Source: Cordylochernes scorpioides (lineage: Eukaryota > Arthropoda > Arachnida > Pseudoscorpiones > Chernetidae). Taken from it: a DNA stretch of 64,000 nt. Positions 8,541-58,460 of the stretch are shown here, piece after piece. Location: positions 113,212,010 to 113,276,009 of the forward strand of contig CP092863.1 of the NCBI GenBank assembly GCA_030710605.1, read 5' to 3'. The position numbers were made by a program, and so were the translations under genes. The notes beneath the pieces are model-generated. The model searched no databases. It was not told the DNA's origin and worked only from the letters and a program-made list of their open reading frames with translations. Every line of letters begins with the position of its first letter. Position 1 is the first letter of the stretch.

Positions 8541-8554
8541 ACAATGTTTACCTC

Positions 8555-8736
8555 CCCGGTACAAAACGTAAAGGTGGTGATGAAGAATGAGCCACAATAC
8601 CAGTTTTTGACAAATTCAACCCATTTCATAACTCCCCTCTAAGCCACCCCTGTACTGATGAGGGCCAGAGCCCGAAACCATCCAAAACTAGTGTTCTGGA
8701 AAATTATTCATCACCAAGTTTACGTTTTGTACTGGG
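8555..8736 (+). mobile_element. Small inverted-repeat element carrying a hammerhead-like core
   Basis: Imperfect terminal inverted repeats of about 33 bp (left GGTACAAAACGTAAAGG at about 8559; the complementary arm ends near 8736) flank about 110 bp. Inside, 8655-8678 reads CTGATGA, GGGC-CAGA-GCCC, GAAAC, which is the hammerhead core with a perfect 4-bp stem II. The flanks do not pair into a stem I, so this looks like a dead ribozyme. The internal sequence resembles the copy at 20200-20385. Confidence 0.6.
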
Positions 8737-10580
8737 ATGATAAACAAAATGCGCATTGTTTCAATCTATATATATCTGATGGATTAAAATAATATGGAAA
8801 TTATTTAGAGAAATCTTGGATTGTACCTTCTAGAACATTCAGAAAATTACATTTTCAAGGTTAGTAGAAATTTCGGTTTAGACCCCAAAAAGTTGGTGTA
8901 TAAATGAGAAGTTTATATATTCCCAATATAAATGAGAGGTGTTATATCTTGGATGGAAGGTAGATAACTGCGCTATTATTTCGGTGATAGAAGGGTCGTG
9001 TTCCTTTAAAGATCGTTCTGAAGATACACATGTCTCCTAACCGTTACCTATTATAGAAGAGGGACTGCGTTCAACAATAGGAATGTATAAAAATGGAAGA
9101 AAAAAAAGAGAGGCATTCATAACATTTCGATTTATCCAGAAAGCCTGTCAAATAGAGAGAGTCAACCAACCTAATCTCCTTGGAATTTCTAAGATGCCGT
9201 TATAACCTTCCAATTTTGCTTGTTATCAGACCTTTTTACGATTTCTAAAGAAAAGTCAAAGCTTTTTTTTTTTCTTGAAAATTAAAAAAATATAATCTCT
9301 ATAAAAGAAAAAAAAAAACATTTTATTCGATTTCAAACAAATATATATTTTCAACTTGTTCCTATTTTAAACCCATTCTCAATTTACCTTAAATATATTA
9401 TGTTGATTTAAGTTAAAATATGACATTTCAATAGTTGTTTTACCTAAAATATTCATATAGAAGAAGTATAAATGTTTAAAATATATATTTACCATATTTA
9501 TCCTGAATTAAAATTTTAATAATTGTCAGGAAAATATTTTATACATAATTTAAATAAATATGCTTCGAACACATTTCGTATTCTTCCCGAATTCAAATCA
9601 AAATATCAAATTCTCGATATTTTTTTTTTTTTCTACCAAATATATAAATATTCAAATAAATGTGCTCTCTTTGCACATTTCATTCGAATTCAAATTGAAT
9701 TACATTCTCAATATTTCATTCCCTTCCTCAAAATTCAAATGAAAATACCTCAAACATCTATCTTCAAATTTCAAAGAGAATAAGGCGAGATTCAAGTTCC
9801 AAAGAGCTACAATTTTTTTAAATCCCTCAATTTCCAAGCCAATATATTTTTTCACAGTCTCTATTCATTTAGATTCCTGTTCATCTTTTGGCCAACATCT
9901 TATGTCACATGATAAGAAAAGCAAAATCAACGTAAAGGAGTAGTCCCTTTAAGCTTTCATTAGAGAATAATGTGTATTGTTTAAAATTGATTTTACAAAA
10001 TATTTTAAATGAGTTGAATCGACATTTTTTTCTTGGCAAAAGGCCGGCTTTTATTTTTCGTTATAGTAAATTCCTCCGAGGTAAAATACTATTTCTCTCG
10101 GTGCAAAATTATAAGCTTTACATTTCTGGCCTTATCATATCGATGATTATTGCCTCACATAATTGTAGATTTAATTTATAAAAGTAGGTGCTGAAATAGC
10201 ATTGTAATATATGTTTTATATTGTGTGTGTGTGGGTGTCACGCCGCGATATTTAACATTAGAAGAACAACAGGTGATAGATTTGGAAAGTCACACAATAA
10301 TTGGCCAATTTCAAACCATATGTTCTGATTATAGCCGGCCAAAACATTCGCATTACATTATACTTCTATTACACAATATGCTAATATGTTTTTAAGTAGA
10401 TACTTAGCGTCTTCAGCTATAATTGAAGTATGATATGTATATAAAAATTCACGTGATCAGAAATATTATTGCTATCACTTATTTTCTCCAGTATTAGTGA
10501 TTGTAGAAGTCTAATATGGATGTAAGTTTGCGAGGCTTGTGTAGAATGAGGACGGTGTTTCTAGAATGTTCTAGTAACGG
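8737..10580. other. AT-rich DNA downstream of the P450 exon
   Basis: On the minus strand this would be the first intron of the P450 gene. I find no second P450 exon here or anywhere to the window start (no ExxR, PERF or heme-binding FxxGxxxC frame). Homopolymer-rich, with no recognised gene. Confidence 0.5.
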
Positions 10581-12439: not shown

Positions 12440-12610
12440 AATTTTATAAGGACCTTATAAAACAGCCCGAAACCAAGGTCTCAAGGTGGACGTTCCGAAT
12501 TTGATAAAACTGGTGTTATGGTTTTGTCACCGACCTGAGTCTGCTAGATGTTAGAGGCGGTGCATAGTTTTTGCGTATATTTTGACAGAAGAGATCTATT
12601 TTATTTTTAT
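12440..12610 (+). mobile_element. Hammerhead family 1 element, 5'-decayed copy
   Basis: Contains GCCCGAAACC, AAGGTC and GGTGGACG, the 3' half of the ribozyme seen intact at 49349-49403. The CTGANGA half is lost. The sequence that follows (GGTGTTATGGTTTTGTCACC, then CTGCTAG) is shared with the same element at 26525-26640 and 49200-49330. Confidence 0.6.
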
Positions 12611-20199: not shown

Positions 20200-20385
20200 C
20201 CCGTTAAATTGTATTGTACCAGCCATAACACATTTTTGCTAAATTCGGCTGATTCCATAACTTATCCCGTAGGATGTTACAAAATGGACGCTGTCCCTGA
20301 CTGATGAGGGCCAAAGCCCGAAACCTATGATTAGTCAAATTGTTTGGATTTTGTTCGCGAATTTGCCAAAGTTGGTGTAGTGAAA
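20200..20385 (+). mobile_element. Hammerhead family 1 element with core but no stem I
   Basis: Around 20301-20325 the core is CTGATGA, GGGC-CAAA-GCCC, GAAAC, followed further on by TTTGCCAAAGTTGGTGTAGTG-like family sequence. Upstream and downstream strands do not pair as stem I, so cleavage is unlikely. It is cut at 20386 by a mariner insertion. Confidence 0.55.
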
Positions 20386-20387
20386 TA

Positions 20388-21325
<938 letters not shown>

Positions 21326-21587
21326 TATTCGATGATCCACTTTGCTCAGATAAAGCAAAGAAATGATTTTCTCTAAAAAATGTTTAAAGGGGGCCAGGTG
21401 CTATTCTTATTTTCAACATATAAAAATAGGAAATTTCGATCACATCCATTGTTCGGGCATCTATCGCGCTGCAGGTTTAACTTGCGAATATATATGTGGA
21501 AACCTTTGTCGCGCCTTTGTTTGATTGGACTAAATTTAAAAATGTATATATATTATTTAAAAAAAAATATTATCATCATAAAAACAA

Positions 21588-26524: not shown

Positions 26525-26640
26525 ATAGTACATAATCGGTTGGTGTTGTGGCTTTGTCGCCGACCCGAGGCCGCTAGTTTGCGGCAACGGTCAATAGATG
26601 GGGTCTAGGTTTGACGTATATTTTGACGGGAAATGCGCCC
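26525..26640 (+). mobile_element. Hammerhead family 1 element, ribozyme part absent
   Basis: GGTGTTGTGGCTTTGTCGCC, GACCCGAGGC, AGTTTGCGGC and GGTCAATAGATGG match the region downstream of the ribozyme at 49200-49330. The ribozyme itself is not present at this locus. Confidence 0.6.
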
Positions 26641-28410: not shown

Positions 28411-28414
28411 CTTA

Positions 28415-28802
28415 TTGTAGAACGACATTTGAAAATTATCCTGCATGTGTTTCTTTTGAACGAAAAATCGAAATGTATTTCAAGGAGAAATAACGATTAT
28501 TTCTAACCTTAAGGATGAAGTATGAAAGGATGAATTGTGAAGAGTAATGATGAACGGAAAAATAAAAGTGTTCAGGGATAGGAATCGAACCCACAATGTT
28601 CCGCTTACCGGGCATATGCCATGTCCACTAGGCTACCCTGGACATATTTTTCCGTTCGTAAATATTGTATAAAGTAATTTATAATACAATATAATGCGGC
28701 TTATGATTGTAGAACGACATTTGAAAATTATCCCGTATGTGTTTCCCTTGAACGAAAAATCTAAATTTATTTCAAGGAGAAATAACGATTATTTCTAACC
28801 TT
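28415..28802 (-). mobile_element. tRNA-like retroposon, tandem (1.3-unit) copy
   Basis: A ~95-bp segment starting TTGTAGAACGACATTTGAAA occurs at 28415-28510 and again at 28708-28802, a 293-bp period. The interval holds a tRNA-like sequence on the minus strand and AATACAATATAATGCGGCTT. The whole unit is homologous to the monomer at 50729-51034, so this locus is a head-to-tail partial dimer. Confidence 0.8.
28571..28642 (-). ncRNA. tRNA-like cloverleaf (non-decoding), copy 1
   Basis: 72 nt. Acceptor TCCAGGG pairs with CCCTGAA (one mismatch). D arm GCC/GGC; T arm GTGGG/CCTAT with loop TTCGATT. The anticodon loop is CCGGTAA: position 33 is C instead of U and the stem has an A-G mismatch, so it is not a working tRNA. 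Flanking ACGGAAAAATA and TATTTTTCCGT extend the acceptor helix. Confidence 0.65.
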
Positions 28803-36808: not shown

Positions 36809-37685
36809 AAAGAGGTTACTCCTCCAATTTTCAAGTGGAAACATTTTTTCGTGATCAGTATTTCATAGGCTTCTCTGTATCAAAATAGTTTGGATCCATT
36901 CTATCGCTATTTGTGCGCTGTAATATACGATATCACGTTGAAAAGAAAAAAAAAGATGCATAATGAGAGCCTCAAACTCATTTAATGTTAATATTTTAAT
37001 AAATCATATATTATTACAAAATTAATAAATATATAAAATATACAGATTGAAGATAGTACTTAGTTCCATTCTCATCAAGGCTGTGTAACACAATTACCTA
37101 ATTCGAAATTCAGTCTTGGATTATTTCCACAAGACACTGAACTTCGAATTCGGCAATTGTTCATTTGACGTCTTGTCAATTTAGAAAGGTAGAGACAGAC
37201 AGATATATTCGGCTGTGACGTGGCTTCTTGAGTTGATCCAGCTGGGTTTGAAACAACAAAGGCGACTGTTTAACCAATAGTCATTTCTGTAAATGCTTGT
37301 CCGCATTTCTCCGCTCAACGTCTCCACAAGGACAACCAGTTAGCAGTGGCACAGAAAAAAATATTTTTATTTATATCCAAGATGAAAAAAAGTTGGTTAA
37401 CGCAATTTCCTGTATCTTGCATATGTCACCAACCACCCGGATATAATTAAATTCAGATGAGCAAACAAGAGAGAAAACGTATCATTTAAATGTCTTAATG
37501 GTATTTGCCGATTCTAGGTTGTCATAGCATTTATATGACTAACAAACTAGCCCATAAGTTAAAAGCCTTAGTTGAAGCTAAGGCAGGCAGCGAGAAAGAC
37601 CTCGCGAAAGAAAAAGGATTGGAATAGGAAGGCCACTTCACCTCCCACAGATTGCCAATCCGTCAACAGGCTTGCTTCATTCCAC
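36809..37685. other. Intergenic DNA, no gene recognised
   Basis: AT-rich. Only a small hairpin (GCCTTAGTTGAAGCTAAGGC at 37565-37584) stands out. Confidence 0.5.
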
Positions 37686-37689
37686 CTTG

Positions 37690-39955
37690 GCTAGGCCTAT
37701 TTCTGGCCTCCCGTTTCCTCACCTCGGCGGCCCATCGCACCCATGTTCCTCATTAGTTAACATTGCCATAGACTTCCCCTGGCCTTGTAGAATTGGTTCT
37801 TACTGGTTTCTGCGGCCCATTATACCCATGTTGTTCATTAGTCAATTCTGCCAATGACTTCCCCCGGCCTTGTAGAATGGGTTCTTACTGGTTTCTGCGG
37901 CCCATTATACCCATGTTCCTCATTAGTCAATCCTTCCAATGACCACCCCTGGCCTTGTAGAATGGGTTCCAACTGGTTTCTGTGGCCCATCGCACCCATG
38001 TTCCTCATTAGTCAATTCTGCCAATGACTTCCCCTAGCCTTGTAGAATGGGTTCTTACTGGTTTCTGTGGCCCATCGGACCCAGGTTGTTCATTAGTTAA
38101 TTCTGCCAATGACTTCCCCCGGCCTTGTAGAATGGGTTCCAACTGGTTTCTGTGGCCCATCGCACCCATGTTCCTCATTAGTCAACACTGCCATAGACTT
38201 CCCCCGGCCTTGTAGAATGGGTTCTTACTGGTTTCTGTGGTCCATCGCACCCAGGTTGTTCATTAGTTAATTCTGCCAATGACTTCCCCTGGCCTTGTAG
38301 AATGGGTTCTTACTGGTTTCTGTGGCCCATCGCACCCATGTTGTTCATTAGTCAATTCTGCCAATGACTTCCCCTGGCCTTGTAGAATGGGTTCTTACTG
38401 TTTCTGCGGCCCATTATACCCATGTTCCTCATTAGTCAATTCTGCCAATAACTTCCCCGGCCTTGTAGAATGAGTTCTTACTGGTTTCTGTGGCTCATCG
38501 CACCTACGTTCCACATTAGTTAATTCTGCCAATGACTTCCCCTGGCCTTGTAGAATGGGTTCCTACTGGTTTCTGCGGCCCATCACACCCATGCTTCTCA
38601 TTAGTTAACACTGCCATAGACTTCCCCCGGCCTTGTAGAATGGTTTCTTACTGGTTTCTGTGGCCCATCGCACCTATGTTGTTCATTAGTCAATTCTGCC
38701 AATGACTTCTCCCAGCCTTGTAGGGTGGGTTCTTACTGGTTTCTGTGGCCCATCGCACCCATGTTGTTCATTAGTCAATTCTGCCAATGACTTCCCCCGG
38801 CCTTGTAGAATGGGTTCTTACTGGTTTCTGCGGCCCATCGCACCCATGTTGTTCATTAGTCAACACTGCCATAGACTTCCCCCGGCCTTGTAGAATGGGT
38901 TCCTACTGGTTTCTGTGGCCCATCGCACCCATGTTGTTTATTAGTCAATTCTGCCAATGACTGCCCCCGGCCTTGTAGAATGGGTTCTCACTTGTTTCTG
39001 TGGCCCATCGCACCCATTTTGTTCATTATTCAATTCTGCCAATGACTTCCCCCGGCCTTGTAGAATGGGTTCCTACTGGTTTCTGTGGCCCAACGCACCC
39101 ATGTTGTTCATTAGTCAATTCTGCCATTGACTTCCCCTGACCTTGTAGAATGGGTTTTCACTTGTTTCTGTGGCCCACGCACCTATGTTCTTCATTAGTC
39201 AATTCTGCCAATTACTTCCCTCGACCTTGTAGAATGGGTTTTTACTGGTTTTACGGCCCATCGTACCCATTTTCCTCATTAGTCAATTCTTCAAATGAAT
39301 TCCTCTGGCCTTGTAAAATGGGTTCCTACTGGTTTCTGTGGCCCGTCGTACCCATGTTGTTCATTAGTCAACACTGCCATAGACTTCCCCTGGCCTTGTA
39401 GAATGGGTTCCTACTGGTTTCTGTGGCCCATCGCACCCATGTTGTTCATTAGTCAATTCTGCCAATGACTTCCCCTGGCCTTGTAGAATGGGTTCTTAAT
39501 GGTTTCTGTGGCCCATCGTACCCAGGTTGTTCATTAGTCAATTCTGCCAATGACTTACCCTGGCCTTGTAGAATGGGTTATTACTGGTTTCTGTGGCCCA
39601 TCGTACCCAGGTTGTTCATTAGTCAATTCTTTCAATGATTTCCCCTGGCCTTGTAGAATGGGTTCTTACTGGTTTCTGTCGCTCATCGCACCCATGTTCC
39701 TCATTAGTTAACTCTGCCATAGACCCTACCGGCCTTGTAGAATGGGTTCTTACTGGTTTCTGCGGCCCATCACCCCCATGTTTCTCATTAGTCAACACTG
39801 CCATAGATTTCCCCCGGCCTTGTAGAGTGGATTCTTACTGGTTTCTGTGGCCCATCGCACCCATGTTCCTCACTGCCATCGACTTCCCCCGGCCTTGTAG
39901 AATGGGTTCTTACTGGTTTCTGTGGCCCATTGCACCCATGTTCCTCATTAATCTT
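37690..39955. repeat. 85-bp satellite, ~26 copies
   Basis: The CATTAGT landmark recurs at 37751, 37836, 37921 and 38006, an exact 85-bp period. Each unit contains GGCCTTGTAGAATGGGTTCT, TACTGGTTTCTG and GGCCCATCGCACCCATG. Alternating variants (TTCCTC or TTGTTC; AACACTGCCATAGA or AATTCTGCCAATGA) suggest higher-order organisation. The period is not a multiple of three, so the many open frames are artefacts. Confidence 0.97.
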
Positions 39956-42045: not shown

Positions 42046-42069
42046 TATATATAAATCTATTAAAAATAA

Positions 42070-42260
42070 AAAAGGCATATCCTGACCATGAGCACATGTG
42101 CTTTACAGGATTGGCCAAATATCAGGGAACAGGCTAAATCAATGTTTAGTTGATTTCTGTTCCACCAGATGGCGCTCTGCCTTCTGTAAAGCACATGTGC
42201 TCCTGGTCAGGATATGCCTTTTTTTTTTTAATTTTTAATATCAACACCTGACCTTTTTAT
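42070..42260 (+). mobile_element. Hammerhead family 2 element, part without ribozyme
   Basis: GGCATATCCTGACCATGAGC, TTGGCCAAATATCAGGGAAC, CCACCAGATGGCGCTCTGCC, TGCTCCTGGTCAGGATATGC and CAACACCTGACCTTTTTAT all recur in the ribozyme copy at 49783-50160. Its two ends are inverted copies of each other, giving a short foldback. Confidence 0.75.
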
Positions 42261-42269
42261 TATTATTTT

Positions 42270-42830
42270 TTTCTATAATATTTTTCATAGAAATCTATAG
42301 ATCTGGTACATTGAGGATATTTCATGTATTACTGCTAAAGGTGTCTCATAGTGATATTTCAAACAATTCTTATAATACACTAGTTTCCAAAATTTAAAAA
42401 AATATACAAACATTATATTTGGTATAGAACTCTATTTTGGTAAAGATAAAAATCAAAATTGTCGAACTTATACAAATTTAGCTCAAAATTTTATTTTTGA
42501 ACTTATACCTAGACGAATTTTTAATAATCATTCTTGATAACCACTTTTCTGCATGTGTGTATTAGAATATCAGAAATGTTGTTCTTTTTAAAATCTTTAA
42601 AGATTTTAAAAAGAAAACTCGGACATAGTGATTTCATTCGAATTTTTACGATGGTAAAGTTTCTTCTAGATACACTGGCTACAAAAATATCGCATCCTCT
42701 AGAAATACTATGTAAATATTCTGAAAATTGGTGAGCTATATAATGTAAAAATAATTTATTGGAATTTTTCAAAAAAGGAATGTAAATTTATTTAGATATA
42801 CAGCTTTTATCAACATTTGGTGTGTCCTTT
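42270..42830. other. AT-rich DNA, possibly Tc1 3' flank
   Basis: No gene. May contain the 3' end of the Tc1 element that follows, but I could not identify a terminal repeat. 42580-42620 holds a short palindrome (TTTTTAAAATCTTTAAAGAT). Confidence 0.4.
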
Positions 42831-42839
42831 GGCCTATAT

Positions 42840-43560
42840 TCAAGCAGCTACACGGTGAGTAATACTGTCATGCAGTTTTTTTTATGGCTTCTTGTAGACC
42901 AAGCCAATTCATTTTTTTTGCCGAAGCTATTGAAGATTGCTTGGCTATGAAAATTGCCAAATTTCCTTACCCATCATGTTCCATACATGCTCAATTGGGG
43001 AAAGATTTGGGAAACATGCGGGCCCGGGAAGAATGTCTACCTTTTGAAGGAAGGCTCATGAGATGTTGGCTGTATGTGGTCGGGCATTATCTTGTTGGAA
43101 AATGGCATTATTAGTCTGATCAATAAATGATAACACAACAAGTTGCAACACATCTGTATTGTATAGCTGAGCAGTCATTGTACCCTGAATAGATACTAAA
43201 GGGGCCCTACTTTCAAATTTGATGCCACCCTATTCCATGAAGCCAGGGTTTCTAACTGTATGCCTTTCCACAATATAGTATCAATGGGATATTTCTTGGG
43301 ACCTACGTCATGAACCCCCAAACTGAATTTAGATTACTCAGAAAAATAAAAAAATTCCATTCTTGGGTCCAAAGACGTCGCTCTTCACACCAGCTTAACC
43401 TGTGATTCTGTGTCTGGCAGAGAATGAGAGAGCCGAGACTACGGAGTTATATTTCGATAAGACGGTCATTAACGGTGTTCAGAGATGGTCCATTCTGCAC
43501 ATGTAGAGCTGTATTGGTACAGTCCTGTTTGATACAATCATCCTTCGAATTCTCCTATTT
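42840..43560 (-). pseudogene. Tc1-like transposase, decayed
   Basis: On the minus strand, with frameshifts, the order is: SLNTVNDRLIE; QNHRLSWCEERRLWTQEWN; FMTxVPRNIPL; WHGIGWHQI (from GFMVWGGI); then FQQDNARPHTA; and PNLSPIEHVWNMMGKEI with the stop at 42840. These are the central and C-terminal blocks of a Tc1-family DDE transposase. The second Asp and terminal Glu are still visible, about 32 residues apart as read here rather than the usual 34. Multiple stops make it inactive. The 136-bp satellite begins about 65 bp beyond its 5' side. Confidence 0.75.
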
Positions 43561-43624
43561 TCTCTCTGTTATTACTCTAGGGAGACCCGAAACAGGTTTT
43601 CTTGAACTTTTATATTTCTTTGAG

Positions 43625-46545
43625 CACTGGGACCAACTAGGTTCAACTAGACCCACGAGGTCAAGCCAGACACACAAACGTTCAGTCAGAGCTAGATTCC
43701 AGTCAAATACCTGACATAGAGGTCCAGCCTGACCTATGAGAACTATCCAATTACACGGGTTATGACCATACACGGAGGTCCAACTAGACACACGAAGTGT
43801 AGCCAAATACACGACGTTCAGTCAAAGCTAGATGCCAGTCAAATACCTGACATAGAGGTCCAGCCTGACCTATGAGAACTATCCAATTACACGGGTTATG
43901 ACCATACACGGAGGTCCAACTAGACACACGAAGTGTAGCCAAATACACGACGTTCAGTCAGAGCTAGATGCCAGTCAAATACATGACATAGAGGTCCAGC
44001 CTGACCTATGAGAACTAGCCAAATACACGGGTTATGACCATACACGGAGGTCCAACTAGACACACGAAGTGTAGCCAAATACACGACGTTCAGTCAGAGC
44101 TAGATGCCAGTCAAATACCTGACATAGAGGTCCAGCCTGACCCATGAGAACTAGCCAATTACACGGGTTATGACCATACACGGAGGTCCAACTAGACCAA
44201 CGAAGTGTAGCCAAATACACGACGTTCAGTAAGGGCTAGATGCGAGTCAAATACCTGACATAGAGGTCCAGCCTGACCTATGAGAACTATCCAATTACAC
44301 GGGTTATGACCATACACGGAGGTCCAACTAGACCCACGAAGTGTAGCCAAATACACGACGTTCACTCAGAGCTAGATGCCAGTCAAATACCAGACATAGA
44401 GGTCCAGCCTGACCCATGAGAACTAGCCAATTACACGGGTTATGACCATACACGGAGGTCCAACTAGACACGCGAAGTGTAGCCAAATACACGACGTTCA
44501 CTCAAAGCTAGATGCCAGTCAAATACCTGACATAGAGGTCCAGCCAGACCCATGTGAACTATCCAATTACACGGGTTATGACCATACACGGAGATCCAAC
44601 TAGACACACGAAGTGTAGCCAAATACACGACGTTCAGTCAGAGCTAGATACCAGTCAAATACCTGACATAGAGGTCCAGCCAGACCCATGTGAACTATCC
44701 AATTACACGGGTTATGACCATACACGGAGGTCCAACTAGACACACGAAGTGTAGCCAAATACACGACGTTCAGTCAGAGCTAGATGCCAGTCAAATACCT
44801 GACATAGAGGTCCAGCCTGACCTATGAGAACTAGCCAATTACACGGGTTATGACCATACACGGAGGTCCAACTAGACACACGAAGTGTAGCCAAATACAC
44901 GACGTTCAGTCAGAGCTAGATGCCAGTCAAATACCTGACATAGAGGTCCAGCCTGACCTATGAGAACTATCCAATTACACGGGTTATGACCATACACGGA
45001 GGTCCAACAAGACACACGAAGTGTAGCCAAATACACGACGTTCAGTCAGAGCTAGATGCCAGTCAAATACCTGACATAGAGGTCCAGCCTGACCTATGAG
45101 AACTAGCCAAATACACGGGTTATGACCATACACGGAGGTCCAACTAGACACACGAAGTGTAGCCAAATACACGACGTTCAGTCAGAGCTAGATGCCAGTC
45201 AAATACCTGACATAGAGGTCCAGCCTGACCCATGAGAACTAGCCAATTACACGGGTTATGACCATACACGGAGGTCCAACTAGACCAACGAAGTGTAGCC
45301 AAATACACGACGTTCAGTAAGGGCTAGATGCCAGTCAAATACCTGACATAGAGGTCCAGCCTGACCCATGAGAACTAGCCAATTACACGGGTTATGACCA
45401 TACACGGAGGTCCAACTAGACCAACGAAGTGTAGCCAAATACACGACGTTCAGTAAGGGCTAGATGCCAGTCAAATACCTGACATAGAGGTCCAGCCTGA
45501 CCCATGAGAACTAGCCAATTACACGGGTTATGACCATACACGGAGGTCCAACTAGACCAACGAAGTGTAGCCAAATACACGACGTTCAGTAAGGGCTAGA
45601 GATGCCAGTCAAATACCTGACATAGAGGTCCAGCCTGACCTATGAGAACTATCCAATTACACGGGTTATGACCATACACGGAGGTCCAACTAGACCAACG
45701 AAGTGTAGCCAAATACACGACGTTCAGTCAGAGCTAGATGCCAGTCAAATACCTGACATAGAGGTCCAGCCTGACCTATGAGAACTAGCCAAATACACGG
45801 GTTATGACCATACACGGAGGTCCAACTAGACACACGAAGTGTAGCCAAATACACGACGTTCAGTCAGAGCTAGATGCCAGTCAAATACCTGACATAGAGG
45901 TCCAGCCTGACCCATGAGAACTAGCCAATTACACGGGTTATGACCATACACGGAGGTCCAACTAGACCAACGAAGTGTAGCCAAATACACGACGTTCAGT
46001 AAGGGCTAGATGCCAGTCAAATACCTGACATAGAGGTCCAGCCTGACCTATGAGAACTATCCAATTACACGGGTTATGACCATACACGCAGGTCCAACTA
46101 GACCAACGAAGTGTAGCCAAATACACGACGTTCACTCAGAGCTAGATGCCAGTCAAATACCAGACATAGAGGTCCAGCCTGACCCATGAGAACTATCCAA
46201 TTACACGGGTTATGACCATACACGGAGGTCCAACTAGGCACACGAAGTGCAGCCAAATACACGACGTTCAGTCAGAGCTAGATGCCAGTCAAATACCTGA
46301 CATAGAGGTCCAGCCTGACCCATGAGAACTAGCCAATTACACGGGTTATGACGATACACGGAGGTCCAACTAGACACACGAAGTGTAGCCAAATACACGA
46401 CGTTCAGTCAGAGCTAGATACCAGTCAAATACCTGACATAGAGGTCCAGCCTGACCCATGAGAACTAGCCAATTACACGGGTTATGACCATACAAAAAGA
46501 TCCAACTAGACACACGAAGTGCAGCCAAATACACCGGGTCAACAA
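43625..46545. repeat. 136-bp satellite, ~21 copies
   Basis: The ACGACGTTCA landmark recurs at 43811, 43947 and 44083, a 136-bp period. Each unit carries CTAGATGCCAGTCAAATACC, ATAGAGGTCCAGCCTGACC, ATTACACGGGTTATGACCAT and GGAGGTCCAACTAGACACAC. The first and last copies are degenerate. Within a unit similar blocks recur about every 20-23 bp (TCCAACTAGACACACGA, GTAGCCAAATACACGA, GTCAAATACCTGACA), suggesting growth from a shorter motif. Open frames on the minus strand arise from low stop density and are not genes. Confidence 0.97.
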
Positions 46546-46745
46546 GACATACGAAGTCCAAACATCCATAAGCTGTCTAACATACACACGATGTTCAGAA
46601 AGATCTTGGCAGCCCCAGCAAACACACAAGAGCCAGAACGAGACACATCCTGCCCTTCTATACCTGGTGTAGTTTGCCACAGGTTGCCCAGTCAGAAACA
46701 CAAGTTCTAACCAGACCTAAAGTCCACCTATACCTTTGGTGGTTC
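46546..46745. repeat. Diverged edge of the satellite
   Basis: Continues the CACACGA/AAGTCCA-type short motifs (GACATACGAAGTCCAAACAT, ACACACGATGTTCAG) without the 136-bp order. Confidence 0.55.
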
Positions 46746-47649: not shown

Positions 47650-47931
47650 AAGGTCAGACGTTGATATTAAAAATAAAAAAAGGCATATCCTGACCTCTCA
47701 CATGAAGATTTTATATGGCAGAGCGCCATCTAGTGGAACAAAAATCAACTTGATTTTGGCTTGTTCTATAATATTTAGCCAACCCATTTTCTTGAAAAGA
47801 CAACCACCTACGCGTTTCGGGCTGATGGCCCTCGTCAGCGTGGTGCAGACTGTACTTGAACGACCAAATTTTCAACCAAAAGGCATCCTGAGAAATCAAG
47901 AAATAGGCAGGTAAAAGACCAAATTTATGTA
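47650..47931 (-). mobile_element. Hammerhead family 2 element, minus-strand copy
   Basis: Read on the minus strand: ATTTGGTCTTTTACCTGCCT, the ribozyme (47797-47852), GGGTTGGCTAAATATTATAG, AGATGGCGCTCTGCC and GGTCAGGATATGCC, the same order as 49783-50160. Confidence 0.8.
47797..47852 (-). ncRNA. Type I hammerhead ribozyme, slightly degenerate
   Basis: Core CTGACGA (47838-47832), stem II GGGC-CATCA-GCCC (47831-47819), GAAAC (47818-47814), helix III loop GC, then GTA with cleavage expected after 47809. Stem I pairs 47840-47844 with 47807-47803 (5 bp), but position 1.1 is a G-G mismatch and the outer stem has one mismatch. Catalytic-core bases are intact. Activity is uncertain because of the mismatch next to the cleavage site. 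Confidence 0.65.
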
Positions 47932-49150
47932 TAACTAGACGAATGACCCGGCTTGGCCCGAGAATTCTCCCGAGTGCAATTTCCTTCATTCTGAAAGTAC
48001 ATCAATAATAAATAGTAGAAGTGCCATAGAATAGTAATACAGAAGTAACATATAAACCACAGGCAAAAAGTGTGTGTGATGGTAAAAAATTGTATTATAT
48101 TAGTGTTTAGGTATTTTGATTTAATTTTTTTTTTGCAATCCATTTAGTTGTTTCAAAATCAATATAGTTTAAATAGATGACAGCTTTTCCACCCAACCCC
48201 CGAGGTACCCACCCCAGCGCATTAACCCTTGAAATTGCCTGAGTGTGAGTGACTGCGATGGATCTTAACTGCGATGCCCATCTTCTCAGTAAGAATAAGA
48301 AAAAATAGGTTTATATATAAAAAAATAATCCAAAATACTGGCATGTAAATATTTTCAGTAAAAAATAAAGAGCACATGGAAATTAGGCAAACATATGTTT
48401 GCTAATGACTGCAACTGCATTTTAAACGATTTAAAAAAAAAAGAGATAAAAAAACAAAGGCCAGAACAAAAATCCGTATTTTTTATTGTCTTTTTTCAGT
48501 TGTCTGTTTCGCGATAAACTCAAAAACTACTGAACCAATTGGTACCAAATTTTACATGTCGCTTTTTATAAACCTGAGGAAAATTTTCGGCTACATTTTG
48601 ATTAGTATTTTTGGCTTTTTTTTTTTCGTTTGAAGAACTTTTTCTTTTCTTGAGCGACCAATGAACGTTCCGCTTTTTTTTTTTTCAAGTTGCTTGCGTA
48701 CTTTTTTTAAATAGATATTTATACGAGTGTTACTTTTTTTTACAAAAGTATTGAGAGAGTAATTTATATTACTAAGTTACGGTAATAGTGCACACAATGC
48801 AATTTTTAAAAAAACTTCACGAAATTAGCGTTACTCTAGGTAAATAGTGGCTTTCGTATTTTTTATTAAAGCCATTATTCACATACAGTAACGCTAATTT
48901 CGTAAAGTTTTTTTTAAAATTGCATTGTGTGCACTTTTACCGTAACTTAGTAATATAAATTTCTCGCTCAATACTCAATACTTTTGTAAAAAAAATATCA
49001 GTTCTTCAAATGAAAAAAAAAAAATACTAATCAAAATGTAGCCGAAAATTTTTCTCAGGTTTATAAAAAGCGACATGCAAAATTTGGCACCAATTGATTC
49101 AGTAGTTTTTTAGTTTATCGCGAAACAGACATTGACTTTTATATATAAGA
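47932..49150 (+). mobile_element. Interspersed element with 620-bp internal palindrome
   Basis: Starts AACTAGACGAATGACCCGGC and ends ACATTGACTTTTATATATAA, the same termini as 32039-32750. Between about 48503 and 49131 two long arms are complementary (CTGTTTCGCGATAAACTCAA left; TTAGTTTATCGCGAAACAG right; also GCACACAATGCAATTTTT and its complement), meeting near 48850-48870. The left arm holds extra sequence. No protein. Confidence 0.7.
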
Positions 49151-49194
49151 AGATATGTTTTTTTAGAATATGAATATTTTAAATAACACACTTT

Positions 49195-49620
49195 CTTTAG
49201 ATGGAAATTTTGCCGGGAGGATATTGATCTAAAGAGACAAAGGTCGCCTCTCCCGTCAAAATAGACGCCATCTATTGACCGTCGCCGCAAACTAGCTGCC
49301 TCGGGTCGGTGACAAAGCCACAACACCAGCTTTGGCAAACTGAAAAGCGTCCACCTAGAGACCATGGTTTCGGGCTAATGGCCCTCGTCAGCCTAGGGCG
49401 GACTTTATTCCATGAGATCCACACGGGATCTAATGGAATCCTCACAATCTGCCAAAGAGGTGTTTAGCTGGCAAAGTGGCTGGGCCAAATCTATGGCAAA
49501 ATATAGATGGAAATTTTGCCGAGAGGATATTGATATAAAGAGACAAATGAGAGACATAGATGGCGTATAGTTTTGACATCTATTTTGACCGGAGAGGCGA
49601 CCTTTGTCTCTTTGGACACT
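49195..49620 (-). mobile_element. Hammerhead family 1 element between direct repeats
   Basis: AGATGGAAATTTTGCCG plus about 30 following bases occurs at 49199 and again at 49505 (306-bp spacing). Between them on the minus strand lie the ribozyme and the conserved GGTGTTGTGGCTTTGTCACC region. Similar pieces are at 12440, 20200 and 26525. Confidence 0.75.
49349..49403 (-). ncRNA. Type I hammerhead ribozyme, all core parts present
   Basis: On the minus strand: outer stem GTCC (49403-49400) with GGAC (49352-49349); internal loop GC/T; stem I CCTAGG (49397-49392) with TCTAGG (49359-49354), 6 bp including one G-U; CTGACGA (49391-49385); stem II GGGC (49384-49381) with GCCC (49375-49372), loop CATTA; GAA (49371-49369); helix III A-CC-AT-GG-T; cleavage expected after C at 49360 (GTC). 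Every conserved hammerhead base I can check is present. The helix III segment ACCATGGT is self-complementary, so two molecules could form an 8-bp helix III. It would self-cleave in transcripts of the minus strand. Confidence 0.85.
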
Positions 49621-49782
49621 TTCTTCAATATGAAATATTCAAATTTTAATCATCTTTATCATGAATTGAGGCATACAAATGGCATTCCATTGATTCCTCT
49701 TTGAAGAGCATTGTTCTCTCTCTTTTGAACCTACCAGGACACAAACTTACCTGGAGACACATGGGCTTACATAACTATTATG

Positions 49783-50160
49783 TGCTCCTGGTCAGGATAT
49801 GCCATTTTTATTTTTGATTTCAACACCTGACCTTTTTATCTTATATTTTTTCTTTCATTATTTCATGTGTTAAGCGTATTTACGCAAGTTTGGCCTTAAA
49901 TACCCATTTCTTGGTTTTTCAAGAAGCCTCTGGGACCAAAAAATATTTTTGGTCGCAGTGGTACAGCCTACTCCACGCTGACGAGCGCCAAAAGCGCGAA
50001 ACGCGTTCGTGGATGGCTTTTCTTGCTTTATCAAGAAATTGGGTTGGCCAAATATCAGGGAACAGGCTAAATCAATGTTTAGTTGATTTCTGTTCCACCA
50101 GATGGCGCTTTGCCTTCTGTAAAGCACAAGTGCTCCTGGTCAGAATATGCCATTTTTAAT
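49783..50160 (+). mobile_element. Hammerhead family 2 element between direct repeats
   Basis: TGCTCCTGGTCAGGATATGC begins at 49783 and recurs (one change) at 50131, 348 bp apart. The interval holds CAACACCTGACCTTTTTATC, AAGCGTATTTACGCAAGTTT, the ribozyme, and CCACCAGATGGCGCTTTGCC. The direct repeat makes this a 1.1-unit head-to-tail copy. Confidence 0.8.
49965..50018 (+). ncRNA. Type I hammerhead ribozyme, all core parts present
   Basis: Outer stem AGCC (49965-49968) with GGCT (50015-50018); internal loop TAC/T; stem I TCCACG (49972-49977) with CGTGGA (50008-50013), six Watson-Crick pairs; CTGACGA (49978-49984); stem II GCGC (49985-49988) with GCGC (49994-49997), loop CAAAA; GAA (49998-50000); helix III A-C-GC-G-T; cleavage expected after U at 50007 (GTT). 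Compared with the 47.8-kb copy, stem II is GCGC/GCGC instead of GGGC/GCCC and stem I differs on both strands, yet pairing is kept. Such covariation supports selection on structure. ACGCGT is self-complementary, allowing a dimeric helix III. Confidence 0.87.
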
Positions 50161-50728: not shown

Positions 50729-51034
50729 AATACAATATAATGCGGCTTGTGATATTATATTGTATTTTAAATTACTTTATGTATTATTTACGAACGGAAA
50801 AATATATCCAGGGTAGCCTAGTGGACATGGCATCTGCCAGGTAAGCGGAACACTGTGGGTTCGATTCCCATCCCTGGACACTTTTATTTTTCCGTTTAGC
50901 ATTACTCTTCACGATTCATCCTTTTTTACCTCATCCCTAAGGTTATAAATAATCGTTATTTCTCCTTGGGATAAATTTTGATTTTTCGTTGAAAAGAAAC
51001 TCATGCGGGATAATTTTCAAATGTCGTTTTACAA
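50729..51034 (+). mobile_element. tRNA-like retroposon, monomer with 14-bp target duplication
   Basis: TCTTTTAAGTTTAT flanks both sides (50715-50728 and 51035-51048), marking a 306-bp insertion. It starts with an inverted repeat AATACAATATAAT/ATTATATTGTATT (50729-50765), then an ACGGAAAAATA/TATTTTTCCGT stem enclosing the tRNA-like cloverleaf, then a ~95-bp AT-rich tail homologous to the repeated segment at 28415-28510. The target duplication indicates retroposition. Confidence 0.85.
50807..50878 (+). ncRNA. tRNA-like cloverleaf (non-decoding), copy 2
   Basis: 72 nt. Acceptor TCCAGGG/CCCTGGA, 7 perfect pairs; TA linker; D stem GCC/GGC; anticodon stem TCTGC/GCGGA; loop CAGGTAA; 5-base variable loop; T arm GTGGG/CCCAT with loop TTCGATT. 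The B box is intact. Loop position 33 is A rather than the invariant U and nominal anticodon GGT, so I do not call it a translating tRNA. Flanking complementary stretches lengthen the acceptor helix. Pol III terminator-like TTTT follows. Confidence 0.7.
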
Positions 51035-51059
51035 TCTTTTAAGTTTATCACCGGTTATA

Positions 51060-54672: not shown

Positions 54673-54899
54673 ACAAAATAACGTATTTATTTTTGTAATA
54701 TATAATATGTTTATATGGTTTTGACCAAGGACTTGGTTGTTGCGTGATGTAATCAATATATGGCGCGAGATATTCATGTTTTTAGTTCTTATGATACTTC
54801 TGTAATAATAAAATATTATACAAATATATAACAGTAGCATACAATCTCTTTTAATAGAAACTACACTACCTAAGTTTATTGAATATTAGGTAGAAGAAT

Positions 54900-56463
54900 A
54901 CATAACCGTGGCGACGAGGATTAAAAAAAAAAGTAAGTTTTCAAGTATTGAAGAATTTATCCCTAATAATGGCAACTCTTTTGCAAGTTATTTGGAAAGA
55001 ATAGAATGTCATTTTGTTGCAAATGAGGTGACCAAAGAAGAGAAAAAGAGAGCAATATTTCTCACCTTGTGTGGTAAAGAAACTTATGAAATAACAAAAT
55101 CGCTGACTTCGCCAAAAAAGCCGTTGGAGACAGATTGGGCTGAGATTGTTGACAAAATAAAGAATCATTTTGATCCTAAACCCAATGCTATTGCTCAGAG
55201 ATTTAAATTCATTAAAAGACAACATAAACCAAATGAGATCATAGCTGAATTTATAGCTGCCCTAAGGAAGCTAGCAGAGAACTGTGAATTTATTGATCTC
55301 GAGGATAGATTACGGGATGCGTTAGTGTGTGGCATCATTGGTGAGAAGTTGCAGACTATGTTGCTAACGGATGACAAGTTAACACTTAAAAAACTCAAGA
55401 AATAGCAACAGCATACGAAGCTGCAACAAGAGATGTAGAAGAAATGAAACTGGAACAACCCCGTGAAGAAGTCAATGCAATAGGAAGCACAATGAAGAAA
55501 CAAAGAGATGAAAAACAACTTGCAAGATGTTTTCGATGTGGGAGGACAAATCATAGATCAGAGAATTGTTTCTATCGAAGAAAAAGGTGCAACCAGTGTC
55601 AGGAAATTGGACACATTGCTAGAGTTTGTAAAAACAATCGGGGAAAGGAACATAAAGAAAACTGTTCGATAGAATATGAGGATATTGTTGAAACAAATGG
55701 CCTTTTCAATGTGAATCAATTGGAGAATATGAATAGTTATCATAAGTACATGTTAAGGGTGCAAACCAGTGGACGAGCCATAGACATGCTAATTAATTCA
55801 GGAAATGGAAAGAGTATCATATCAGAAAAAACATACCAGGAGACGTGGACAGAGGCAGAGAGACCACAGCTGGAGAGGGATACCACAAGTTTAGCCCAGT
55901 GGAATAAACAGAGGCTACCGATTTTGGGGAAGATAATCACAGAAGTTAAAGTAAAAGAAAATAGCCATGAAAATGCTCGTAGTGAAGGGACCAAGCCCAA
56001 ATTTGATAGGAAGAGAAGCCTTTGACCAAATTGGGATTGAAGTAGAATTGATAAACTACTATGACAGTATGCCCAATATTTTAGAAGAGTTTAAGGAAGT
56101 GTGTTTGAAGATAAACTTGGAAAATATAAAGGTCCCCACCCATACACAGAGAGCTCAACCCACAAGCAAGACCTACCTTTCTTAGAGCAAGAGCCTTACC
56201 ATATGCCATCAAAGAAAATGTGGAAATACATTAAAGAAAATGAAAGAACAGGGAATATTAACCCCAATGAGTTCTCAAAATTTGCAAGGCCCATCGTTCC
56301 AGTACAGAAGAGAGATGGTACGATAGGAATATGTGGTGACTACAGAATCACTATTAACACCATTGTAAAGCCAGATACATTCCCAGTTCCCGTAGCTGCT
56401 GCCCTGCAGGCTGTTAGGGATTTACACTGTTCTATGAATACTATCTTTTGGATTCGTCGTTGA
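54900..56463 (+). pseudogene. Ty3/gypsy retrotransposon gag-protease-RT relic, 3'-truncated
   Basis: TGGCGACGAGGAT at 54909-54921 looks like a tRNA primer binding site, so the 5' LTR would end near 54906 (its start is not defined). The gag (frame from about 54930) has FASYLERIECHFVANEV, FDPKPNAIAQRFKF and KLAENCEF. One frameshift near 55395 leads to two CCHC zinc knuckles (CFRCGRTNHRSENC; CNQCQEIGHIARVC). The protease region follows, its active-site D-S/T-G read as NSG (LINSGNGKSII). Further shifts near 55960 and 56100 lead to the start of reverse transcriptase (ARPIVPVQKRDGTIGICGDY, KPDTFPVP). It stops before the YxDD box; integrase and 3' LTR are missing. Resembles the K02A2.6-like gypsy group from memory. 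Dead copy. Confidence 0.85.
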
Positions 56464-56725: not shown

Positions 56726-57322
56726 TCAAAATATTTTATTTAAGATACTCCATCTCCGTTTCTTCTTGGGTTTCTTGGCGACGAGGGGCGGCGGCACGCA
56801 GTCGGACACTGGAGTCGACGTCACCATTCTCTCTGGGAATGAGCTGTTCTCGAGGCTGGACAGGCGCTTGACGTCCCCGAAGCCCAGGTCGGGGAAGGGC
56901 ACCGGGCAGGCGTCGAACGCTGAAAACAGGTCCTGCACCAACCCGAAGGTCTTGAGCAACACCTCTATGAGACGACAGAGCTCTTCGGTTCCGCTGAGGG
57001 ACAGCTCCAGCTGGTGCTCTAGTCGCTGGTTCTCTATCGTTAGCATGGACTGGATGGTCTGGCATTGCTTGTGGACAGCCACCGAGCTGCGCAGTTTATC
57101 CCCTTCGTTGGCGCAGAACACAAAGAAACTGGAGGCGATCTGATTGAGTTTGTTCAGTCGAGCCTTCAGGCTCTGAACGCTGGTGATGAGCTCTTTGTAT
57201 TTGATGTGGATGGGCGAGGGGTGTCGCAGCAGCTCGTCCACATAGAACACCAACTCGGACAGCGCCATGTCCAGCACGACCTTCTTCTGGTAGGTCGCTT
57301 CGTTCAGATCTATCTCTTCCAT
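56726..57322 (-). CDS. Unknown 198-residue protein, single exon
   Basis: ATG at 57322 in a good context (GTAGCCATGG) opens 198 codons to TGA at 56728-56726. GC content is far above the surrounding DNA, a strong sign of a maintained gene. I do not recognise the family. Residues ~10-130 look mostly helical with regular hydrophobics and may form a coiled coil or helical bundle (VLDMALSELVFYVDELL, LKARLNKLNQIASSFFVF, MLTIENQRLEHQLELSL, LCRLIEVLLKTFGLVQDLF). Residues ~130-180 are Pro/Ser-rich. The tail KKPKKKRRW is basic and could be a nuclear localisation signal. No signal peptide or membrane segment. The frame is open for 15 codons upstream of the ATG, so a non-AUG start or a spliced upstream exon (CTTCCCTCAG at about 57375 could be an acceptor) is possible. 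It lies between a gypsy relic and a LINE fragment. Confidence 0.7.
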   Translation of the reverse strand: MEEIDLNEATYQKKVVLDMALSELVFYVDELLRHPSPIHIKYKELITSVQSLKARLNKLNQIASSFFVFCANEGDKLRSSVAVHKQCQTIQSMLTIENQRLEHQLELSLSGTEELCRLIEVLLKTFGLVQDLFSAFDACPVPFPDLGFGDVKRLSSLENSSFPERMVTSTPVSDCVPPPLVAKKPKKKRRWSILNKIF

Positions 57323-57374
57323 GGCTACCTCGCTGGCTGGCTTTTCAAAACTGCTAGCGTGCGCCACGTGTCTC

Positions 57375-57401
57375 TGAGGGAAGTAAATACCTCTTTTTAT
57401 A
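57375..57401 (-). promoter_or_regulatory. Candidate core promoter (TATA box and initiator)
   Basis: On the minus strand TATAAAAAG (57401-57393) lies 26 nt before the A of CTCAGAG (57375), an arthropod-type initiator. The ATG at 57322 follows after about 53 nt. The same CCCTCAG could instead be a splice acceptor. Confidence 0.45.
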
Positions 57402-57420
57402 TCCCGCGCAACATATCCAT

Positions 57421-57868
57421 GAAAAGGAAAAAGAAAGACAACAGACCATCAAAACCCTGGTGGAATAAAGACTTAGCAAAACGCCCGCAATGTAGTAGTT
57501 TCTCTAAGGCGCCTTGACCGGCCATGGTTACATTCAGGCAGACCTTGCAACGGTATCGAAAGAAGACCCAATTTGCCCCCACTGCCAAGATGAAGACCAA
57601 ACCGTAGACCACCTCCTCTTCACTTGCCCAACCTTCCAATACCAAAGATTCCAGACAGCCACTCTCCTAGGTATCACCAACATATGTCCAGCATCCCTAG
57701 AAAATCTCCCAAGAAAGAAATCTGCCTGGCGACACCTCATTAATTGGACTTCCACTGGCATTGTATATAAATCCAAGAAGACTTAGGTCAGAAGGACATC
57801 CCGGGTAGTTGGCGACTTCTGTACGCTCCAGGAACCTGGGTTACTTAAATAAATAAATAATATATATC
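57421..57868 (+). pseudogene. Non-LTR retrotransposon fragment (3' end)
   Basis: The first part, RKKKDNRPSKPWWNKDLA, matches the linker between endonuclease and reverse transcriptase of jockey/I-type elements. After a large internal loss and a frame change, the C-terminal part follows: TGHGYIQADLAT, then a zinc motif CPHCQDEDQTVDHLLFTC, ending at TAG about 57786. The 3' end finishes in AATAAATAAATAA. The reverse transcriptase core is absent. Confidence 0.75.
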
Positions 57869-58224: not shown

Positions 58225-58460
58225 TCTCTATATTTTCAGTATAACTTGGCGTATTCACGTAAATTTGGTCTTTAATAGCATTTTATTGGATGGAAATAAG
58301 TCATCCTGCACCACGTTAAAGAGGGCCAACATCCCGAAACGTGTATGTGGTTGACATTTTTTTATTAATTCGAAAATATATATATATTAGCCAATTTCCA
58401 TAAATATATTCTAAAAAGGTTCAGTTGATATTTCCTTCGATAGATGGCGCTATGCTATCA
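58225..58460 (+). mobile_element. Hammerhead family 2 relic, core mutated
   Basis: TTGGCGTATTCACGTAAATTTG and later GATAGATGGCGCTATGC align with the 49.8-kb element. At 58281-58340 the ribozyme is CACCACG, TTAAAGA (from CTGACGA), GGGCCAACATCCC, GAAACGTGTA: core destroyed, stem II weakened. Confidence 0.65.

Follow-up and report, generated by a model that had tools for sequence, protein, structure and literature searches.

A minimal type I hammerhead ribozyme in a high-copy, head-to-head repeat of Cordylochernes scorpioides that is probably mobilised by a Penelope-like enzyme

The window, i.e., the whole stretch of 64,000 nucleotides of Cordylochernes scorpioides DNA analyzed here, contains an element of 418 bp (49198-49615) that lies between two copies of ACACTTTCTT and carries a hammerhead ribozyme (HHR) motif on the minus strand. 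Its features are, in window positions:

49188..49197, unstranded: left target-site duplication (TSD), ACACTTTCTT
49198..49547, minus strand: main arm, one 306-bp unit plus 44 bp repeated, with the tail CTCCCGGCAAAATTTCCATCTA at its end (from the direct repeat and arm mapping)
49349..49403, minus strand: type I HHR with core, stems I and II and palindromic stem III (from sequence, descriptor and pair counts)
49403-49400 and 49352-49349, minus strand: outer stem I of the HHR, GTCC paired with GGAC
49399-49398 and 49353, minus strand: internal loop of stem I, GC against T
49397-49392 and 49359-49354, minus strand: stem I, CCTAGG / TCTAGG
49391-49385, minus strand: core, CTGACGA
49384-49372, minus strand: stem II and its loop, GGGC-CATTA-GCCC
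49371-49369, minus strand: core, GAA
49361..49368, minus strand: stem III palindrome ACCATGGT, 2 bp in the monomer and 8 bp in the dimer
49360, minus strand: C17 of the HHR, the cleavage bond being 49360/49359
49556..49615, plus strand: second arm, 5'-truncated, inverted and tailless, the head-to-head partner of the main arm (end read by eye)
49616..49625, unstranded: right TSD, ACACTTTCTT

The direct repeat 49198-49241 / 49504-49547 sets a spacing of 306 bp, which falls within the 170-400 nt range of retrozyme units, and an inverted repeat (49228-49270 / 49574-49616) links the two arms. The arm ends are unequal, as the short arm stops about 30 nt earlier in the unit than the tailed long arm. 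For the family to which this copy belongs (family 1), the sequence to set against the terminal repeat (pLTR) and tail of a Penelope-like element (PLE) is CTCCCGGCAAA(A/T)TTTCCATCTA. The 418 bp hold no long gene and leave no room for an RT plus GIY-YIG open reading frame. A nested foldback element with inverted arms of 124 nt and 108 nt (48501-49131) adjoins the HHR element and explains sub-threshold Rfam matches to miRNAs, e.g., mir-16 (35.4 of 36.5 bits).

Type I HHRs have three helices with the open end at stem I, share the core consensus CUGANGA ... GAA-A / U-H and are cleaved after H17. An earlier note had proposed a complete type I HHR at 49349-49403 from the letters alone. On reading the minus strand, every part that it had named was found where it had been placed, and the sequence together with a descriptor scan assigns the core to type I. 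Stem I consists of 6+4 bp and stem II of 4 bp; the innermost pair of stem I is a G.U wobble in the window copy and A-U in most other printed copies. The description as complete holds for the core and for stems I and II, but not for stem III, which amounts to just 2 bp in the monomer and needs two copies to reach 8 bp. Stem III, the monomer's weak point, had been left undescribed in the earlier note, and a tertiary contact between loop I and loop II would be putative.

Stem III is the palindrome ACCAUGGU in family 1 and ACGCGU in a second family (family 2). The predicted minimum-energy fold of the monomer (-21.3 kcal/mol) has a mispaired core, while the HHR fold is predicted at -15.3 kcal/mol without and at -14.0 with stem III. 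When two strands were folded together, the window copy was predicted to form a double hammerhead whose stem III has 8 bp (-49.8); for the commonest form of the family the predicted dimer reached -51.6, with stem III pair probabilities of 0.79-0.99. Note that 20 of 300 shuffles of the eight stem III nucleotides gain equally from dimerising, and that for family 2 the two-strand folding did not predict a double HHR. Since stem III has only 2 bp alone and 8 bp in the dimer, these folds suggest that the dimer is most likely the active form of the family 1 HHR. Dimer action has been published for PLE-type (Penelope-like element) HHRs, according to the available text of PMC7761336.

The full descriptor, in which core, stem II, stem III, cleavage triplet and stem I are all required, matches twice in the window, at 49391 (minus strand) and 49978 (plus strand), against a mean of 0.004 per shuffled window; two of the 500 shuffled windows contained one match and none contained two. 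The core pattern alone occurs seven times, with 0.85 expected. Two of the seven (21935, minus strand, and 31966, plus strand) look like chance matches. On these descriptor and core-pattern counts a chance origin of the motif at 49349-49403 was rejected, in line with the earlier judgement that chance assembly was unlikely. The folding energy of the motif is weak evidence (z -1.96), as 7 of 200 shuffles fold equally well.

At the gathering score, Rfam found no hammerhead anywhere in the window, and the motif at 49349-49403 stayed unlisted in the window at a relaxed threshold and, even with E values of up to 10 allowed, in a slice of 1.1 kb. The covariance-model check that had been proposed along with the motif did not succeed at threshold: only on a short slice of 73 bases was HH9 found, with 20.0 bits and a gathering score of 52, which is a curated cut-off and not a definition of HHRs. 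In the relaxed search of the window, HH9 matched the family 2 motif at 49965-50018 (30.1 bits, E 0.0017). The motif thus resembles RF02275 (Hammerhead_HH9) in stem order, in the internal loop of stem I and in the outer stem I, but departs from it in score, both the family 1 slice and family 2 remaining under 52 bits. In five loci with exact-core copies, none of those copies was listed at E up to 0.1, and the single HH9 match in these loci (22.8 bits) was to a different motif in locus L038.

A custom model was built from four window copies, those at 49, 50, 47 and 58 kb, and recovers these four, as it must. It finds two further decayed HHRs at 8.6 kb (E 0.0032) and 20.3 kb (E 0.011). Its matches at 57073 (E 0.33) and 63315 (E 1), both on the minus strand, are weak and were taken as chance. 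When the four copies are aligned, standard pairs fill 88.9% of the pair cells, versus 25-38% when the partners are slid by 1-3 columns. The paired percentage was reached by 9 of 500 shuffles and the covariation score by 2 of 500; four of the 16 pairs have changed on both sides, a number that 66 of 500 shuffles reach. The pairing score is lowered because the outer stem of family 1 sits one column out of register in the alignment. The further copies in the window are:

49965..50018, plus strand: second full HHR, family 2, stem III palindrome ACGCGT (descriptor, HH9; model training copy)
47798..47851, minus strand: family 2 HHR copy with a G-G mismatch adjoining the core (core pattern; model training copy)
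58303..58356, plus strand: decayed family 2 HHR with mutated core (model training copy)
42058..42290, plus strand: family 2 head-to-head copy without HHR, an inverted arm and a sense arm with a longer 3' end (ends by eye)
20301..20336, plus strand: decayed family 1 HHR (custom model E 0.011), its element split by a mariner-like insertion
8642..8704, plus strand: decayed HHR of a related type between the inverted arms 8545-8610 / 8681-8746 (E 0.0032)
12464..12593, plus strand: family 1 copy, 5'-truncated, beginning within stem II of the HHR
26541..26616, plus strand: family 1 copy, 5'-truncated, without HHR

The copy at 42058-42290 is flanked by the 8-bp repeat AAATCTAT (42053-42060 and 42291-42298). 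Family 2 is a separate HHR element family with different stems and with direct repeats 348 bp apart; a frame of 48 codons starts from the ATG directly behind its HHR (50013). The mariner-like element inserted beside the family 1 copy (about 20390-21334) was so labelled by eye from its inverted ends, and its ORF 20824-21255 has no Pfam match. Elsewhere in the window, two 282-nt inverted repeats that are 91% complementary (28414-28695 / 50754-51035) contain sequence resembling tRNA-Thr (GGT) and probably represent a tRNA-derived SINE. Two tandem satellites, one repeating every 85 bp and the other every 136 bp, occupy 37607-39857 and 43558-46579, and broken gag/CCHC-type retroelement frames lie at 54890-56463, with a zinc knuckle above and a PNMA-like match below the cut-off. 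When 10 of the 28 ORFs of at least 110 aa in the window were run through Pfam, none proved to be an RT or GIY-YIG ORF. A bacterial or phage HHR was rejected because the window is animal DNA, as shown by the 2.62-Gb size of the genome, an exon nearest to mitochondrial P450s and one Transposase_1 ORF. The HHR element gave no match to phage records, a scan of viral contigs returned nine stretches with a related core pattern, and a protein search with the window ORF 56726-57448 found nothing.

The host assembly (2.62 Gb, 24 contigs) was then searched for further copies. The exact 26-nt core occurs 9,960 times genome-wide (4,946 + 5,014) and the reversed pattern not at all; a 30-mer downstream of the HHR yielded 9,946 copies (4,946 + 5,000), again with 0 for the reversed control. 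Together with the descriptor scan and the pair counts, the core copies bear out the earlier assignment of the motif to a type I HHR inside an interspersed element. A first sample comprised 67 non-duplicate loci from about the first 21 Mb of contig C1 plus the window copy; this sample is not random, and its loci were selected to have an intact core. L011, L031 and L036 were dropped as the same insertions as their neighbours, and L054 and L075 each count as two single-arm clusters, their arms being more than 60 bp apart. Among the resulting 70 clusters, 45 are head-to-head (-,+), 24 have a single arm and none has the order (+,-). One composite, L020, has the order (+,-,+). In 31 of the 70 clusters a word of 10 nt or more is common to both outer ends, compared with a mean of 4.2 clusters and no more than 9 in 200 shuffles; several of these words are AT-rich. 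In 41 of the 45 composites a 3' tail of about 33 nt is present on exactly one arm, where about half would be expected under independence (p about 4e-9): 24 composites bear the tail solely on the left arm, 17 solely on the right, one on both and three on neither. Of 130 arms, 39 exceed 306 nt, counting gaps of at most 30 nt, and continue from one unit into the next; just one arm contains two exact HHRs. The structural marks of PLEs are thus found in the first sample, namely the head-to-head inverted repeat, the tail of about 30 nt on one arm and the variable TSD. The earlier note had not recognised such a Penelope-type insertion as the carrier of the HHR. A MITE or a DNA transposon with terminal inverted repeats was rejected, as the arms are unequal, 5' truncated and have two alternative 3' ends.

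A second sample of 30 loci was drawn from the 30-mer search irrespective of HHR status. For the insertion pattern 11 of these were left out, since they overlapped with the first sample or repeated another insertion, and the remaining 19 gave a weaker picture: seven are head-to-head, 12 single-arm and none (+,-). The tail is one-sided in five of the seven head-to-head copies and absent in two, and a repeat of at least 10 nt was found for one of the 19 (control mean 0.3, maximum 3). These 19 insertions, which are without the exact core, are probably older.

The motif, the core copy number, the head-to-head structure, the one-sided tail, the duplications and the unit-to-unit read-through are read from sequence, each from a sample. 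Because PLE insertion marks are present but a long gene is not, the repeat probably represents a retrozyme-like unit that depends on a PLE acting in trans for its movement. We thus consider it likely that the locus holds a minimal, dimer-acting type I HHR in a unit of about 306 bp without a long ORF, and that this unit belongs to a high-copy non-autonomous retroelement mobilised in trans by a Penelope-like RT/endonuclease. In principle, the PLE insertion signature can also be explained if the copies are solo 5'-truncated pLTRs of an ordinary autonomous PLE, which the HHR would serve without there being any separate non-autonomous element. We regard this explanation as possible, if rather unlikely. 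In line with it, the window copy of family 1 has an open frame of at least 70 codons at ACC-ATG-G, within or beside the HHR, family 2 has its 48-codon frame from the ATG at 50013, and the ORF of PAc (Poseidon of Anolis carolinensis) starts at stem II, as far as the available text of PMC11167929 describes it. Against this, the 39 of 130 arms that exceed one unit show no coding region between units, and the commonest length among 81 family 1 frames is 30 codons.

If cleavage by the HHR determined where the cDNAs stop, 5' ends should gather at the cleavage site. In the second sample this was the case for none of 30 arms; 29 of the 5' ends lie upstream of the site, including one that falls a single base inside the core, and the remaining one lies at +45. 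Cleavage therefore does not set the cDNA ends. As the cDNAs read through the cleavage site, their templates should be uncut multimers or re-ligated circles. A mild excess of 5' ends (8 of 30, L080-L109) falls within -22..+1 of the HHR, with p 0.014 for an interval that was picked post hoc. One copy, at L022:1489-1533, ends at C17 and is joined to an inverted arm at the stem III palindrome. Core and cleavage triplet are kept in 18 of the 30 arms, and in 10 of 30 stems I and II are kept as well; 12 fail the core-plus-triplet pattern, one of them since its start is downstream of the HHR. Substitutions in the core plus H17 number 12 of 308 when two of the 30 arms with long gaps are excluded, and selection on the core after insertion was not apparent, the core being not clearly better conserved than the stems and loop II.

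The empty cleavage site and the 12 arms with a failed pattern would both agree with the HHR motif being a fossil that persists through copying of the element while its RNA no longer cuts. So would the behaviour of PAc, whose insertion in vitro is independent of HHR cleavage and yielded no reads ending at the site (PMC11167929, available text). Nevertheless, two families with different stems retain pairing and thousands of copies retain the exact core, from which it follows that the amplifying source kept the HHR motif. We therefore consider a fossil unlikely.

Twin priming by LINEs leads to an inversion within one copy and would not yield two outward-facing 3' ends. It is thus very improbable that the repeat, as a metazoan retrozyme, owes its mobility to a LINE and resembles PLE insertions by coincidence: repeats of 10-15 bp are compatible with LINE insertion, and the 15-bp TSDs of Nematostella HHR repeats have been compared with LINEs (available text of PMC4918200), but a one-sided tail combined with two 3' ends spaced by about 33 nt has its counterpart in the available PLE literature and no poly(A) tail was seen by eye in 45 printed end pairs.

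Mobilisation in trans by a PLE enzyme also agrees with much of what has been described for related systems. The minimal PLE HHRs in the available accounts of Cervera and De la Pena (2014) and of Lunse, Weinberg and Breaker (2017) are likewise of type I, have a short stem III or none, are suited to dimers and occur in thousands of dispersed copies in repeats with PLE structure. The window repeat differs from these in being a unit of about 306 bp without a long ORF and without an adjoining PLE coding region. In the available text of PMC7229834, animal retrozymes are units of 170-400 nt that contain a type I HHR but no gene for a protein; that PLEs mobilise them is proposed there, not demonstrated. 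The present repeat resembles these metazoan (non-LTR) retrozymes in unit size, type I HHR, lack of a protein gene, TSDs of more than 4 bp and unit-to-unit copies. Retrozymes are described there as tandem repeats, whereas here 45 of 70 clusters are head-to-head and 41 of these 45 have a one-sided tail. Adineta Penelope, according to the part of PMC3846280 available, has two direct pLTRs and one inverted, a TSD of 8-10 bp and, on one inverted pLTR, a 31-bp tail that may be absent; its head-to-head junction was attributed to self-priming and not to priming from two strands. The PAc protein cuts and extends both target strands, and its cDNA starts at two adjacent internal sites that bound the tail (PMC11167929, available text). 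PAc also carries an HHR at its pLTR, which is dispensable in vitro. The window element shares the HHR in the terminal repeat and, as proposed here, the two internal RT starts that bound the tail and the extension of both target strands, but PAc encodes RT and GIY-YIG, which the window element does not. Furthermore, in the available in vitro account top and bottom strands of PAc used the same RT start sites, whereas here the tail is on exactly one arm in 41 of 45 composites.

We propose a cycle in which the PLE enzyme, a single priming site per strand, RNA cleavage and ligation or circularisation are all putative. Transcripts of tandem units would bear several HHRs. Two of these may pair via the palindromic stem III and cut the RNA to units, which may be ligated into circles. 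A PLE enzyme would cut both strands of the target DNA with a stagger of about 10-15 bp, and cDNA synthesis would begin within the RNA at two sites separated by about 33 nt, each target strand using one of them. Each cDNA would then pass through the HHR to a variable 5' end. Because each target strand would prime its own cDNA, we infer that the two are joined head-to-head, which would leave the one-sided tail and the TSD. The chances appear about even that the full statement applies, i.e., that a retrozyme-like HHR unit free of protein genes, with about 10^4 exact-core copies, carries a complete Penelope insertion signature and that every insertion involves priming of its two target strands at different sites within the RNA.

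Both the mobiliser and the function of the ribozyme are unsettled for many animal hammerheads in dispersed repeats. If the proposed reading is true, it would lend support from genomic data to the published suggestion that animal retrozymes are moved by PLEs. It would also add a two-site strand rule, seen as a one-sided tail in 41 of 45 composites, that was not seen in the in vitro work on PAc. A PLE enzyme should then take the RNA of about 306 nt as template and start at two sites about 33 nt apart. With its many insertions in a single genome, the element family offers a means to work out the priming sites, the strand rules and what the ribozyme does.
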